From positions 1 to 64,000 of the forward strand of contig JAIQGH010000005.1 in assembly GCA_020072655.1 (NCBI GenBank): a stretch of DNA of 64,000 bases, given 5' to 3'. Source of the stretch: Terriglobia bacterium (GTDB taxonomy: Bacteria > Acidobacteriota > Terriglobia > UBA7540). Every line of letters begins with the position of its first letter. Within the stretch, counting starts at the first letter, position 1. Positions 1 to 63,758 of the stretch are shown piece after piece. The notes under the pieces are model-generated. The model worked only from the letters and a program-made list of their open reading frames with translations, was not told where the DNA came from and made no database searches. Both the position numbers and the translations under genes were made by a program.

Positions 1-138
1 CGCTCCGTCCTCGACCTGGTGAGCAAGATCCTGAGCTACGTGCGGCTCTACAACCGCAACGCCCAGCCCTTTCGCTGGACCTACCGCAACCCGCGAAAGC
101 GAATTCATGTTTCACCTATTTCGGTAACGCGACACTAG
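1..138 (+). pseudogene. IS630-family transposase, C-terminal fragment
   Basis: An open frame runs from the window edge to TAG at 136-138 and encodes 45 residues containing the block YVRLYNRNAQPFRWTYRNP. That block is typical of the C-terminus of IS630/Tc1-mariner-type DDE transposases, where the last helix is followed by a W-T-Y segment. The remainder, including the DDE residues, would lie to the left of the window, so it cannot be decided whether the element is intact. No inverted repeat was recognised to its right, and the next gene is a chromosomal-type oxidoreductase on the other strand. Confidence 0.7.
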
Positions 139-220
139 CGCCGGGTGCCGGCTCCGAAATCTATGATGATTGCCTTGCGGTTCTTACCCTAAGCCCTCGC
201 AGTTCGATAGCCCCGTATTC

Positions 221-248
221 CATCTACCGCATGCCGCCTACCGCTTTC
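221..248. repeat. short heptamer-periodic array
   Basis: Four consecutive 7-bp units (CATCTAC, CGCATGC, CGCCTAC, CGCTTTC) end exactly at the stop codon of the neighbouring SDR gene. The unit type resembles CATCTAC-like units at 48571-48592. This is a weak single-sided example of the heptamer arrays found elsewhere in the window. Confidence 0.4.
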
Positions 249-992
249 TCACGGAATGGACTTCCCGCCGTCCACAGCGATGACTTGGCCAGTGATGTAA
301 TCAGCGTGTGTCACCAAGAAGAGAACCGCCGCAGCGATATCCTCAGGGCGGCCGGCTTTCTGAAGAGGCGTGGTCTTGAGGACGTTCTCGGTCCAGGGGC
401 CGCGCTCTTCTCCCGGAAAGAGGATCGAGCCGGGCGCCACACTGTTTACTCGGATGTGGGGGGCCAGCGCTTTCGCCAGGCAGCGCGTCGCCATGATGAG
501 CCCGGCCTTCGAGGCGCAGTAGTGCGTGTAACTGGGCCAGGCTTCGAGCCCTCCGAGCGACGAGATATTAATGATTGTGCCGCTCTTCTGGCGCATCATG
601 AGGCGCGCCGCCGCCTGGGCACAGAAGAACGGCCCCTTTAGGTTGATGCCCAGAACGCGGTCCCAATCCTTCTCTGAGAGTTCATGCCATTTGCGCTCGA
701 AGAAAACCCCCGCATTGTTGACGAGGATGTCGAGGCGAGCGAACTCCTTTTCGACTGCGCGGAACATGGCGCGGATCTGCGGAGGCTTGGCGACATCCGC
801 GCGGATAGCGAGTGAATCGACTCCCAGTGCCCGGATTTCCCGCACCGTCTCGAGCGCCTTCGCCCGAGACTGATGGTAGTTCACTACCACATTCGCTCCG
901 GCGCGCGCGAGCGTCAGCGCAATGACCCGCCCCATCCGCCGTCCGCCGCCCGTCACGAGGGCCACTTGACCATGCAAGGGTGAATCGCTCAT
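249..992 (-). CDS. SDR family NAD(P)-dependent oxidoreductase
   Basis: This 247-residue protein is a classical short-chain dehydrogenase/reductase. The Rossmann cofactor motif TGGGRRMG is at residues 14-21, NNAG at 92-95, and the catalytic Ser (about 145), Tyr158 and Lys162 (YCASK) are all present. The C-terminal ITGQVIAVDGG segment is also typical. The arginines after the glycine motif hint at NADP(H) preference, as in FabG- or pteridine-reductase-like SDRs, but the substrate cannot be inferred. The gene stands alone on the minus strand and its stop abuts a short heptamer array. A cytosolic homotetramer is usual for the family. Confidence 0.88.
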   Translation of the reverse strand: MSDSPLHGQVALVTGGGRRMGRVIALTLARAGANVVVNYHQSRAKALETVREIRALGVDSLAIRADVAKPPQIRAMFRAVEKEFARLDILVNNAGVFFERKWHELSEKDWDRVLGINLKGPFFCAQAAARLMMRQKSGTIINISSLGGLEAWPSYTHYCASKAGLIMATRCLAKALAPHIRVNSVAPGSILFPGEERGPWTENVLKTTPLQKAGRPEDIAAAVLFLVTHADYITGQVIAVDGGKSIP

Positions 993-1023
993 AGCATAGG
1001 AATTGATATCACGATCTCACGGA

Positions 1024-1058
1024 ATTGAAAATTGAAGATTGATAATTGATAATTGGGG
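1024..1058. repeat. left heptamer array flanking the S23-family gene
   Basis: Five tandem 7-bp units of the form ATTGNNN (ATTGAAA, ATTGAAG, ATTGATA, ATTGATA, ATTGGGG) occur without a break. The reverse-complement array lies at 1480-1514, so the S23-family gene sits between inverted arrays. Confidence 0.75.
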
Positions 1059-1106
1059 GCTCCGCTGCTCTGCCGCTACATTTGAGCCGAGGCTCGGGAG
1101 AGGTCA

Positions 1107-1469
1107 TTGCCGGTAAACGCCGAACAGCTCAAAGCGAGAACAAAGGCCTTTGCGCTCCGGGTGATCAAGATGGCAGGGGCACTCCCCCGCCAGCCCGCCG
1201 CGCGAGTGATTGGAGACCAGATTGTTCGCTCGGCAACGTCCGTCGGTGCGAACTACCGGGGCGCCTGTCGAGCGCAGTCACGGGCAATGTTCGCAGCGAA
1301 GCTCGCAATCGTCGAAGAAGAAGCAGACGAGACCCTCTACTGGTTGGAACTGCTGGCAGAATCGGGACTCATCAAGCCGGCGCGCTTGCAGGCGCTCATG
1401 GATGAGGCGCGCCAGATCGTGGCAATCGTTACGGCCTCCCGAAAAACGACCCAAACGCGTGGAAGCTAG
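1107..1469 (+). CDS. four helix bundle protein (23S rRNA intervening-sequence / S23 family)
   Basis: The 120-residue product matches the S23/IVP four-helix-bundle family, with the landmarks IGDQIVRSATSVGANYRGACRAQS at about 36-58 and EADETLYWLELLAESG at about 73-88. Relatives are encoded inside 23S rRNA intervening sequences or stand alone, and the Avd protein of diversity-generating retroelements has the same fold and binds nucleic acid. No reverse transcriptase or 23S rRNA gene is near, so it is a stand-alone copy. The start chosen is TTG at 1107, preceded by GGGAGAGG at 1096-1103; the next Met would cut off helix 1. The gene is bracketed by inverted heptamer arrays, suggesting a small mobile cassette. 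Function is unproven. Confidence 0.85.
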   Translation: MPVNAEQLKARTKAFALRVIKMAGALPRQPAARVIGDQIVRSATSVGANYRGACRAQSRAMFAAKLAIVEEEADETLYWLELLAESGLIKPARLQALMDEARQIVAIVTASRKTTQTRGS

Positions 1470-1479
1470 CCGTGCGGTG

Positions 1480-1514
1480 ATCAATCTTCAATTGGCAATC
1501 ATCAATCATCAATG
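1480..1514. repeat. right heptamer array flanking the S23-family gene
   Basis: Five 7-bp units of the form NNCAATN (ATCAATC, TTCAATT, GGCAATC, ATCAATC, ATCAATG) are the reverse complement class of the array at 1024-1058. The last unit contains an ATG in frame with bshB1, which is one reason to place the bshB1 start further down at 1533. Confidence 0.75.
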
Positions 1515-1532
1515 CGCGATACCGGAGAGATC

Positions 1533-2246
1533 ATGGAACTGGACCTGTTGTCGATCGCTGCTCATCCCGACGACACCGAGCTCACTTGCGGGGGCACGGT
1601 CATCAAGATGGCGGAAGCGGGCTACAAGGTGGGTGCCCTGGATCTGACTGCAGGCGAGACGGGCACACGCGGGAATGCCGCCCTTCGCGAACGCGAGGCT
1701 GCGGAAGCCGCGAAGGTGATGGGCCTCGTGCATCGCGAGAACCTTCATCTTCCGGACGCGGGCGTCGAGGACCGACGCGAGTACAAACTGAAAATTGCGC
1801 AGCGCATTCGGGCCTTGCGGCCGCGCACGGTGATTCTGCCGTATTGGGACGGCCGCCACCCGGATCATTACACCGCCGGCCGGATTGGCTACGAGGCTTG
1901 CTTCCTCGCCGGGCTGGCTCGGCTCTCGCTGGAGGGTCGTCCGCACCGGCCGCTTAAGATCATCTACTCGACCCTCTATGTCCCCGCGGTCACACCCACC
2001 TTCGTTGTGGATATCACGCCCCAGCTCAACAAGAAGCTGAAGGCCATCCTCTGCTATTCGTCGCAGTTCTCGTCGCCCAAGGACATGCAGAACCTCTTCC
2101 CTGCCCGCGCCGACCTGCGCGAACGCGTCGCATCCTTGGCCCGCCACTTCGGCCTCATGATCGGCGTCCGCTACGGTGAGCCTTTCGTTACCCGAGAACC
2201 CGCCCAGGTGGAGGACGTCGTCAATATGCCGGTCAGATCGATTTAG
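1533..2246 (+). CDS. bshB1: bacillithiol biosynthesis deacetylase BshB1
   Basis: The 237-residue protein belongs to the PIG-L/LmbE zinc deacetylase family and closely follows the BshB1 pattern. AHPDD (residues 10-14) supplies zinc ligands and the catalytic Asp, and HPDHYTAG (109-116) supplies the third ligand. BshB1 hydrolyses N-acetylglucosaminyl-malate to glucosaminyl-malate, the second step of bacillithiol synthesis, in the cytosol. ATG 1533 is preferred because GGAGAG lies just upstream and MELDLLSIAAHPDD matches normal family N-termini; the earlier ATG at 1512 lies in a repeat array. BshA and BshC are not in this window. Confidence 0.87.
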   Translation: MELDLLSIAAHPDDTELTCGGTVIKMAEAGYKVGALDLTAGETGTRGNAALREREAAEAAKVMGLVHRENLHLPDAGVEDRREYKLKIAQRIRALRPRTVILPYWDGRHPDHYTAGRIGYEACFLAGLARLSLEGRPHRPLKIIYSTLYVPAVTPTFVVDITPQLNKKLKAILCYSSQFSSPKDMQNLFPARADLRERVASLARHFGLMIGVRYGEPFVTREPAQVEDVVNMPVRSI

Positions 2247-2316
2247 GCGGGCCGGACTGCTTAGGAGGAACACCTCGCTGCCACCAATGGCCGACTCCCA
2301 TTTCTCTGCCCCCGGG

Positions 2317-2409
2317 AAGGCTGAAAGCTGGGCGCTGAGGCTACGTTAGGTGTTGACGAATCTTGACCTGCGAGTTTCTAATTCCCAATTTCCAGTTTCA
2401 AAGTTCCCC
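2317..2409. repeat. two heptamer-periodic stretches between bshB1 and dedA
   Basis: Units ending in GCTG (AAGGCTG, AAAGCTG, GGCGCTG) occupy 2317-2337, and units of the TTTCCAA type occupy 2375-2409 (TTTCTAA, TTCCCAA, TTTCCAG, TTTCAAA, GTTCCCC). They fill the space between convergent bshB1 and dedA. No other feature was seen there. Confidence 0.5.
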
Positions 2410-2412
2410 ATC

Positions 2413-3036
2413 CTAGGCCGCGCCGAGGCGGTTCTTCCACCGATTGTGAACGAACCAGATGGCGCCGATGACCAGCACAATCCCCAGGACCGAATCGAAG
2501 CGGTGGAAGTAGTCGCGGAGTCGAGGCCAGTGCTCGCCGAGCTGCAGGCCGGCGTAAGCAAGCGCAAAACACCAGGGCAGCGACCCGAGGAACGTGAAGA
2601 GATGGAAGCGGAAAACGTTCATGCGCGCAATGCCCGCCGGCAGCGCGATAAAAGTGCGGACGACGGGCAGTAATCGCGCGATGAAAACTGCCCACTCTCC
2701 GTAGCGCGCAAAAAACCGGTCCGCCATCTTCAGGTCGTGGCGTGTAATGAGGACGTAGCGGCCGTAACGCTCGATGAGCGGCCTGCCACCCCAAGAGCCG
2801 AGGTAATAAGCCACCAGCGAGCCGAGATTGCAGCCCACCGCCCCGGCCACCGCAACCCAAGCCAGTTTGAAGCGTCCCAGGAAAACCAGATAGCCGGAAA
2901 ACGGCATGATCACTTCCGAGGGTAGCGGAACGCACGCCGACTCGATCGCCATTAGAAGGACGATCCCGAAGTAGCCCGTACCGCCAATGAAGGTCGTAAT
3001 AAAGTGGGCGAGAAACTCCAGGATGGATGTAACCAT
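2413..3036 (-). CDS. DedA family (VTT domain) inner membrane protein
   Basis: The 207-residue polytopic protein has the DedA/VTT hallmarks: an N-terminal membrane segment, the E(S)ACVPLPSEVIMPFSGYL motif at about 32-50, a central G-x-Y-L-G-S-W region, the FxRLLPVVRTFIALPAGIARM block at about 118-139, and a C-terminal membrane helix with a basic end. DedA proteins act in membrane homeostasis; some members flip polyprenyl phosphate or phosphatidylethanolamine. Which lipid is used here cannot be read from the sequence. It is convergent with bshB1 and separated from it by heptamer repeats. Confidence 0.88.
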   Translation of the reverse strand: MVTSILEFLAHFITTFIGGTGYFGIVLLMAIESACVPLPSEVIMPFSGYLVFLGRFKLAWVAVAGAVGCNLGSLVAYYLGSWGGRPLIERYGRYVLITRHDLKMADRFFARYGEWAVFIARLLPVVRTFIALPAGIARMNVFRFHLFTFLGSLPWCFALAYAGLQLGEHWPRLRDYFHRFDSVLGIVLVIGAIWFVHNRWKNRLGAA

Positions 3037-43353: not shown

Positions 43354-43443
43354 TTGTCCCTTGTCCTTTGTCCCTTGTCCGGGGTCTGAACTGAGAGCTG
43401 CGCTAACCCGCCGACCAAGGACAATGGACAAATGACCAGGGAC
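43354..43443. repeat. inverted heptamer arrays between pseudopilin and gspF genes
   Basis: 43354-43380 consists of four near-identical tandem 7-mers TTGTCCY. 43419-43443 has the inverse type (GGACAAT, GGACAAA and similar). They fill the gap of about 100 bases between the pseudopilin stop and the gspF start. Confidence 0.75.
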
Positions 43444-43845: not shown

Positions 43846-43909
43846 CCTTCGTCACTGGTCCTTCGTCCCTTGTCCTCTGCAAATGCCGGGGGACGAGGGA
43901 CAAGGGACG
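43846..43909. repeat. heptamer array with perfect 12-bp inverted repeat in a pseudopilin leader
   Basis: CGTCCCTTGTCC (43864-43875) and GGACAAGGGACG (43898-43909) are perfect reverse complements separated by 22 bases. Further 7-bp units of the xxxGTCC type precede the left arm. The array lies just upstream of, or within, the leader of the pseudopilin gene. Confidence 0.8.
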
Positions 43910-48360: not shown

Positions 48361-48918
48361 TCAGAGTCTAGCTCGGTGACGCAGGTTGCCTGCCTGAAAC
48401 AACTTCTCTAGCGATGTTATATCACGATTAACCCCGCCGCGATAGATGTAACGAGACGAAATTCTCTATCAAGCGTCCTCTGTCCTAGCTTTCGCGCGCC
48501 GCGCGCGCCTCCGCGCCTCTCCCCCGACTTTCTCCGGGGTTCGGGGTTGGGAACTCGGAGTTCGGCCCCCGTCTACCATCTACCATCTACCGACTTCTGG
48601 CGAGCCGTGACGAGTGACGAGCCGGGAATTCTGGCGACCTGGGAATCGGGAACGAGTGAGCGATTGAATCATCGACTCGGTGGCCCAATGACTCAATCAC
48701 CCGATCACTCAATCGCACAATTCTGCGATTCGCCCCTCCCGCTCCCTTGTCTAGCCCCTAGTCCCCAGCCCCTAGTCCCTGCTCTTCCGGCCCCGACTGC
48801 CGACTCGCCACTCCCGCCTCTGTCTTCCCAGGTCCCCGGCGCCTAGCACCTAGGAAATGGGTAATGGGGTCTTTTGGCTTGAAAGACTCTCTTGCTCTAA
48901 CGCCAACATGCCGATAGT
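48361..48918. repeat. low-complexity intergenic island of mixed 7-bp arrays
   Basis: No gene was found in these 558 bases. From about 48571 to 48860 the sequence is a succession of short 7-bp-phased arrays with different units: CCATCTA (48571-48592), GTGACGA (about 48605-48619), GGGAATC-like (about 48645-48659), ACTCAAT/CCCGATC-like (48660-48716) and TAGTCCC/TAGCCCC (48749-48785), ending with a CCTAGCACCTAGG palindrome near 48842. It lies between the pilus operon and the restriction-modification genes, which are divergent. Confidence 0.65.
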
Positions 48919-63669: not shown

Positions 63670-63758
63670 ATTGTCGATTGAGGATTGAAGATTGATGATT
63701 GAAAAAACACTGGCGGTGGGCGCCAGTCGGCAATCATCAATCGTCAATCATCAATTAT
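63670..63758. repeat. inverted heptamer arrays around a hairpin, between convergent genes
   Basis: Five ATTGNNN units (63670-63704) and four CAATNNT units (63731-63758) are inverted. Between them is a perfect hairpin ACTGGCG-GTGGG-CGCCAGT (63709-63727). The array begins right after the fusion-gene stop and its end overlaps the fur stop codon, so it may terminate both convergent transcripts. Confidence 0.75.

Follow-up and report, generated by a model that had tools for sequence, protein, structure and literature searches.

Near the start of the 64,000-nucleotide window, which is the whole stretch of DNA analysed here, a short gene of the S23 family lies between two arrays of seven-base repeats that face each other in inverted orientation. 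This arrangement raises the question of whether the gene and the arrays belong to one element, and, if so, what the protein has to do with the repeats at its borders.

The focal cassette and the occurrence of its layout

The features of the cassette, together with a gene-less relative of its arrays at the other end of the window, are listed below.

1023-1513, plus strand: whole S23 cassette, about 490 bp, array-gene-array, absent from the orthologous region in four relatives
1023-1055, plus strand: left (5') terminal array, AATTGAAAATTGAAGATTGATAATTGATAATTG, five ATTG-cored heptamers at 7-bp spacing, lag-7 score 19.4
1107-1469, plus strand: S23 (four-helix-bundle) gene, TTG start at 1107, stop at 1467-1469, PF05635 and TIGR02436
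1480-1513, minus strand: right (3') terminal array, ATCAATCTTCAATTGGCAATCATCAATCATCAAT, five CAAT cores, inverse of the left unit family
63670-63758, no strand assigned: gene-less pair of inverted ATTGNNN arrays around a short hairpin spacer, focal unit family without an S23 gene

The initial annotation had described inverted ATTGNNN arrays around the S23 gene, and they proved to be real, with five cores on each side and the end of the cassette corrected to 1513. The two arms form inverted repeats of 36 nt (75%; sub-arms 90%). A candidate ribosome-binding sequence, GGAGAGG, stands immediately 5' of the gene. On one side the cassette is neighboured by a divergent SDR gene and on the other by a PIG-L gene. 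Translation of the latter probably starts elsewhere than at the ATG at 1512, since alignments with homologues begin at residue 6-8. A degenerate heptamer array was also seen 3' of the PIG-L gene (2375-2406). Between the focal arrays the only coding content was a single S23 reading frame of about 120 codons; neither a transposase with catalytic residues nor any other catalytic enzyme was found within the cassette. Its layout, an S23 frame within terminal inverted repeats over some 430-490 bp, is that of an intervening sequence (IVS). No rRNA gene was present near it, the focal copy is not inside a 23S rRNA gene, and no Rfam match was obtained within positions 1-3000. When folded as RNA, the cassette was not clearly more stable than its shuffled versions (z -1.4), and the arrays paired with each other in the minimum-energy fold.

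The focal frame matched PF05635 (E 6.4e-18, 65.4 bits, cut-off 33.8) and TIGR02436 (E 2.9e-25, 88.6 bits, cut-off 24). Its AlphaFold2 model (pLDDT 94) was an up-down four-helix bundle and resembled most closely the family structures 2rld (TM 0.85) and 2gsc (TM 0.82). Since both of these known structures have five chains in the entry, the S23 protein is probably a pentameric ring. XCC0516, the protein of 2gsc, would be predicted to lie between GGGAATC arrays; no Xanthomonas-like genome was recognised in the sampled class, where the best identity was 59%.

The seven-base period was specific in the window: seven lag-7 arrays scored at least 12, compared with 0.03 per locally shuffled window, while lags 4, 5, 10, 11 and 13 gave none and lag 8 gave one. 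The source genome (4.36 Mb, 96% complete) contains 17 S23 genes, of which 13 lay between two heptamer arrays and a further two had octamer arrays (own genome alone versus controls, Fisher p 1e-14). Arrays had been expected to be enriched beside S23 genes relative to other genes, and this held clearly: both sides carried them in 59 of the 67 S23 genes from this genome and its relatives, compared with 5 of 233 control genes from the same genome (Fisher p 2e-47). The own-genome background sample was chosen partly for holding arrays, so the bias runs against the enrichment. A multi-phylum set of 80 S23 loci covered Proteobacteria, Planctomycetota, Acidobacteriota, Chloroflexota, Bacteroidota, Clostridia, Fibrobacter, Cyanobacteria, CPR and one archaeal MAG; there, both-side arrays were found at lag 7 in 51 loci and at lag 8 in seven, and never at lags 5, 9, 10 or 11. 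At the archaeal locus a strong lag-7 array flanked the gene on just one side. Of the 228 S23 genes with full flanks that made up the final set, drawn from about 150 genomes in many phyla, 168 showed lag-7 arrays on both sides and 186 (82%) arrays of lag 7 or 8; lags 5, 10 and 11 again gave none. Chance or slippage beside an S23 gene was ruled out by this enrichment together with the lag specificity.

The repeat unit and its coupling to the protein

The sequence of the unit differed among cassettes (AGTTNTC, AGGTGTC, GAGTGAC, AGGATTC, CGGGACT, GGGTGCT, AGGCAAT and others), and the two arrays of a cassette were almost always inverted versions of a unit peculiar to that cassette. The left unit resembled the reverse complement of the right unit with a similarity of 0.79, whereas permuted pairings gave 0.50 (maximum 0.55, 0 of 2000 reaching the observed value) and the direct orientation gave no match (0.46). 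When the units of 160 cassettes, with a median length of 485 bp, were aligned, an A (0.82) and a G (0.94) were followed by five variable positions. Arrays of four or five units were the most frequent. The order of the units in the two arrays was hardly complementary (mean z 0.18), which makes a perfect RNA stem a poor candidate for the selected feature and favours recognition of the unit itself. Units of 8 bp were observed at six loci (L015, L016, L072, L075, L141 and L181) and a 6-bp unit at one (L350), with the inverted layout unchanged; the repeat period itself can change.

Protein identity predicted unit similarity among pairs from different genomes, with a Mantel rho of 0.276 (permutation sd 0.023, maximum 0.063, 200 permutations). 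Mean unit similarity rose from 0.66 to 0.69 and 0.745 at protein identities of 0.60-0.65, 0.65-0.70 and 0.70-0.80, respectively, and was 0.45-0.50 for distant protein pairs. The multi-phylum set alone gave a rho of 0.05, which was not significant because most of its pairs lie below 55% identity, where the units have diverged. Shared descent of an intact element could account for part of the link between protein and unit. However, in pairs of 0.6-0.8 protein identity the fourfold-degenerate third positions stood at 0.28-0.31, compared with 0.26-0.27 in unrelated pairs; that the unit was kept while such synonymous sites were randomised points to selection maintaining the match between S23 protein and unit.

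After regression on overall identity, the domain positions that predicted the unit match included 41, 42, 43 and 46, as well as 27, 51, 57 and 94. Positions 41-46 adjoin the NIAEG motif, within the loop that joins helices 2 and 3. The signal was mild (r reached 0.17, the 95% null being 0.10) and came from non-independent pairs; it is no more than suggestive of a link between the residues beside NIAEG and the choice of unit.

The stretch from array to array is what moves

The initial annotation had called for comparison with empty orthologous sites. In four relatives (G005, G010, G012 and G014) the region between the SDR and PIG-L genes had neither an S23 gene nor arrays. What the focal cassette itself shows is this absence, and the target duplications come from two related cassettes on plasmids, where the empty sites are precise. 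On plasmid C of Trichormus variabilis, compared with plasmid2 of Nostoc linckia (L213/L217), flanks 98% identical enclosed a 428-bp insertion that comprised the gene with its two arrays and was accompanied by the 5-bp target duplication GTAAT. In Scytonema this insertion was shorter by exactly two heptamers, and Nostoc C052 had a decayed remnant of it. A 417-bp insertion with the 5-bp duplication TTCTA was found on pNsp_a of Nostoc ATCC 53789 compared with pC052_B of C052 and pNsp_c (L231/L235, L236). These were the two clean target duplications, the remaining filled and empty pairs being too diverged to resolve one.

The same cassette was further found at three unrelated sites (L213, L231 and L232), with homology running exactly from array to array. 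Other cyanobacterial plasmid cassettes lay within CRISPR-Cas operons (L214, L228 and L230) of which relatives had versions without them; the insertion points were between cas6 and cas4 twice (Anabaena 90 and Pseudanabaena galeata) and between cmr2 and cmr3 once (Picosynechococcus PCC 7003 versus 7002). Further filled and empty pairs occurred within conjugation operons. The stretch from array to array is therefore what moves, and since no array is present at the clean empty sites, gene and arrays arrive together. Two other loci were of a different kind. On pNsp_c of Nostoc ATCC 53789 (L221), the site of a Nostoc edaphicum S23 cassette was occupied by a gene-less version, namely related arrays with about 140 bp of other sequence. 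At L236, a second and unrelated S23 cassette with GGGGAAAA-type arrays lay one gene away from the S23 cassette of the relatives in the same operon. Searches of viral contigs and phage records with single-protein queries returned no S23 relatives.

Cassettes were also found inside rRNA genes. In Azospirillum lipoferum 4B, an S23 cassette with heptamer arrays interrupted one 23S rRNA copy in the helix-45 region, and the other 23S rRNA copies of the strain were without it. The IVS of Coxiella burnetii lies in the same region; it is a 428-nt element with an S23 gene of about 120 codons, a 28-bp terminal stem of inverted repeats and three tandem GACAGAT heptamers before the S23 start, and the number of repeats, (GACAGAT)n, varies among strains of what was described as a selfish element (PMC4990558). 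On this evidence, the classical IVSs are members of the S23-array element family. However, IVSs have been described only inside rRNA genes, whereas the S23 cassettes studied here lie mostly outside them, are present in many copies per genome and have gene-less relatives; nor had the inverted repeats of IVSs been recognised as arrays of a protein-specific unit. The initial annotation was confined to a single cassette; beyond it, every cassette carries a unit of its own that varies with the protein, and the family takes in the classical 23S rRNA IVSs.

Gene-less arrays were abundant, at about 164 arrays per Mb in the sampled part of the source genome (a sample chosen partly for holding arrays), and many of them were inverted pairs with short spacers. 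Orphan arrays were more similar to the S23 units of their own genome (0.731) than to equal-sized sets from foreign genomes (0.668; 0 of 200). Among 200 genomes of the class, the S23 count correlated with the number of matches to one array pattern (Spearman 0.52, kinship ignored); the mean was 1.5 matches in genomes with no S23 gene, 10.8 in those with one to three and 64 in those with at least four, as expected of a proliferating element. Y1/RAYT transposases were rejected as owners of the arrays, for none of the six Y1 genes of the genome had lag-7 arrays alongside. In the window, the gene-less element at 63670-63758 had a counterpart in G001, a genome of the same genus; that copy shared the ATTG core, was shorter by one unit and had another hairpin. 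In G007 the element was missing at the corresponding site. Inverted TTGTCCC/GGGACAA heptamer arrays (43354-43380 and 43887-43908) surround a minus-strand gene that is prepilin-like and not S23, one of the few non-S23 genes placed between arrays. At 48560-48870, where heptamer arrays were scored over 48569-48868, several unrelated short arrays (TCTACCA, GTGACGA and CTAGTCC) cluster with a ATTGAGTG-like inverted pair of octamers, a graveyard of array elements.

Mechanism, rival explanations and meaning

In our judgement the S23 cassette is likely a minimal mobile element whose sole protein specifically recognises its terminal arrays. The loop that follows NIAEG would make the contact between the protein and its own unit, and each unit would be held by roughly one subunit, since the arrays mostly have four or five units and the ring five subunits. 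Bound in this manner, the protein may flag both termini of the DNA or RNA that encodes it, which machinery acting in trans would then mobilise. The same S23 protein would mobilise or maintain the gene-less arrays as non-autonomous relatives, and the 23S rRNA IVSs would be insertions of the element into rRNA genes, with RNase III excising their RNA there.

Alternatively, the S23 protein could act at the RNA level, binding array RNA in the 5' UTR of its own mRNA or in other transcripts and regulating or processing it, much as the TRAP ring binds repeated triplets, with mobility being incidental and owed to other mobile elements. Several observations agree with this: the polarity of the arrays, with the AG-rich strand 5' of the gene, fitted the common profile in 95 of 105 cassettes; the fold resembles that of Avd, which is part of an RNA-protein complex; the arrays of classical IVSs are transcribed and cut by RNase III (PMC4990558); and TAACTGA heptamers occur just 5' of start codons (MacGregor, 2015, PMC4679880). 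However, the arrays are symmetric at both ends and exactly contained in the inserted unit, and the weakly complementary unit order indicates that a perfect RNA stem is not maintained. We regard an action at the RNA level as unlikely, though it deserves to be kept in view.

It was also considered that S23 might assist a reverse transcriptase supplied in trans, in the manner of Avd, and that array RNA would thereby be copied back into DNA. After the S23 structures, the model indeed matched Avd and diversity-generating retroelement ribonucleoprotein chains (4dwl and 8ub7, TM 0.75-0.78), with the same four-helix fold. However, S23 differs from Avd in sharing 12% identity with it and in having no reverse transcriptase adjacent or elsewhere in the genome: the source genome, with all its S23 genes and at its high completeness, gave no match to PF00078 (RVT_1). 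Retro-mobility of this kind is quite improbable. The same holds for the idea that the arrays are older, independent repeats, such as slippage products or terminators, into pairs of which S23 genes recombine by homology. The commonness of gene-less inverted pairs would suit it, as would L221, where arrays lack S23 and relatives have the gene or nothing, but it is contradicted by the clean empty sites and by a unit that tracks the S23 protein. As for the small mobile or chromatin-like system proposed in the initial annotation, the mobile half stood, supported by the filled and empty sites and by the loss of homology beyond the arrays, whereas a chromatin-like or silencing role is very hard to credit, because array load follows S23 copy number and nothing tested favoured it, even though many orphan arrays across the genome match the genome's own S23 units.

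If the cassettes are mobile elements with protein-specific ends, they touch on repeats known from other bacteria. Heptamer repeats have been reported since at least the STRRs of Calothrix, and are still unexplained; they include the cyanobacterial STRR (Calothrix/Nostoc), TAACTGA (PMC4679880) and GGGAATC of Xanthomonas and Nostoc (PMC4692102). Like the arrays studied here, they are direct 7-bp arrays, mostly intergenic and typically of four units in Xanthomonas, with 70-75 convergent inverted pairs per genome and indels in 7-nt steps; they differ in that no protein or element has been assigned to them. For example, 186 GGGAATC arrays, with 70 inverted pairs, were reported in Xanthomonas campestris without an explanation (Rehm, 2015, PMC4692102). 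MacGregor (2015, PMC4679880) speculated that a repeat-binding protein might be the mobile element, and we propose that S23 is this protein. The S23 elements also share with MITEs and REP/RAYT systems the form of short non-coding inverted-repeat elements dispersed between genes; they are unlike them in that their ends are arrays of a unit that tracks the S23 protein and that the Y1 genes lack lag-7 arrays.

The literature treats IVSs, S23 proteins and heptamer repeats as separate subjects, with heptamers noted beside the Coxiella IVS gene. No paper stating a general link between S23 and arrays was found; subscription literature and preprints were outside the search, and an earlier report is possible. 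Three puzzles, namely the function of the S23 family, the origin of 23S rRNA IVSs and the abundance of heptamer repeats, are hereby brought into one testable system. What moves these elements has become approachable, now that their ends and empty sites are defined and a protein is named. A protein that tracks a tandem 7-base unit is in itself a natural specificity series, and possibly a designable repeat binder. The S23-array element may explain the long-puzzling 7-base repeats of bacteria. Tentatively, and rating it a little below an even chance, we suggest that S23 elements are a new, bacteria-wide class of minimal mobile elements, in which each element encodes one ring protein whose 'code' for a 6-8-bp tandem unit can evolve, and this protein mobilises both the element and gene-less arrays with that unit without a known transposase or reverse transcriptase; such a class would explain most bacterial heptamer repeats as well as IVSs.
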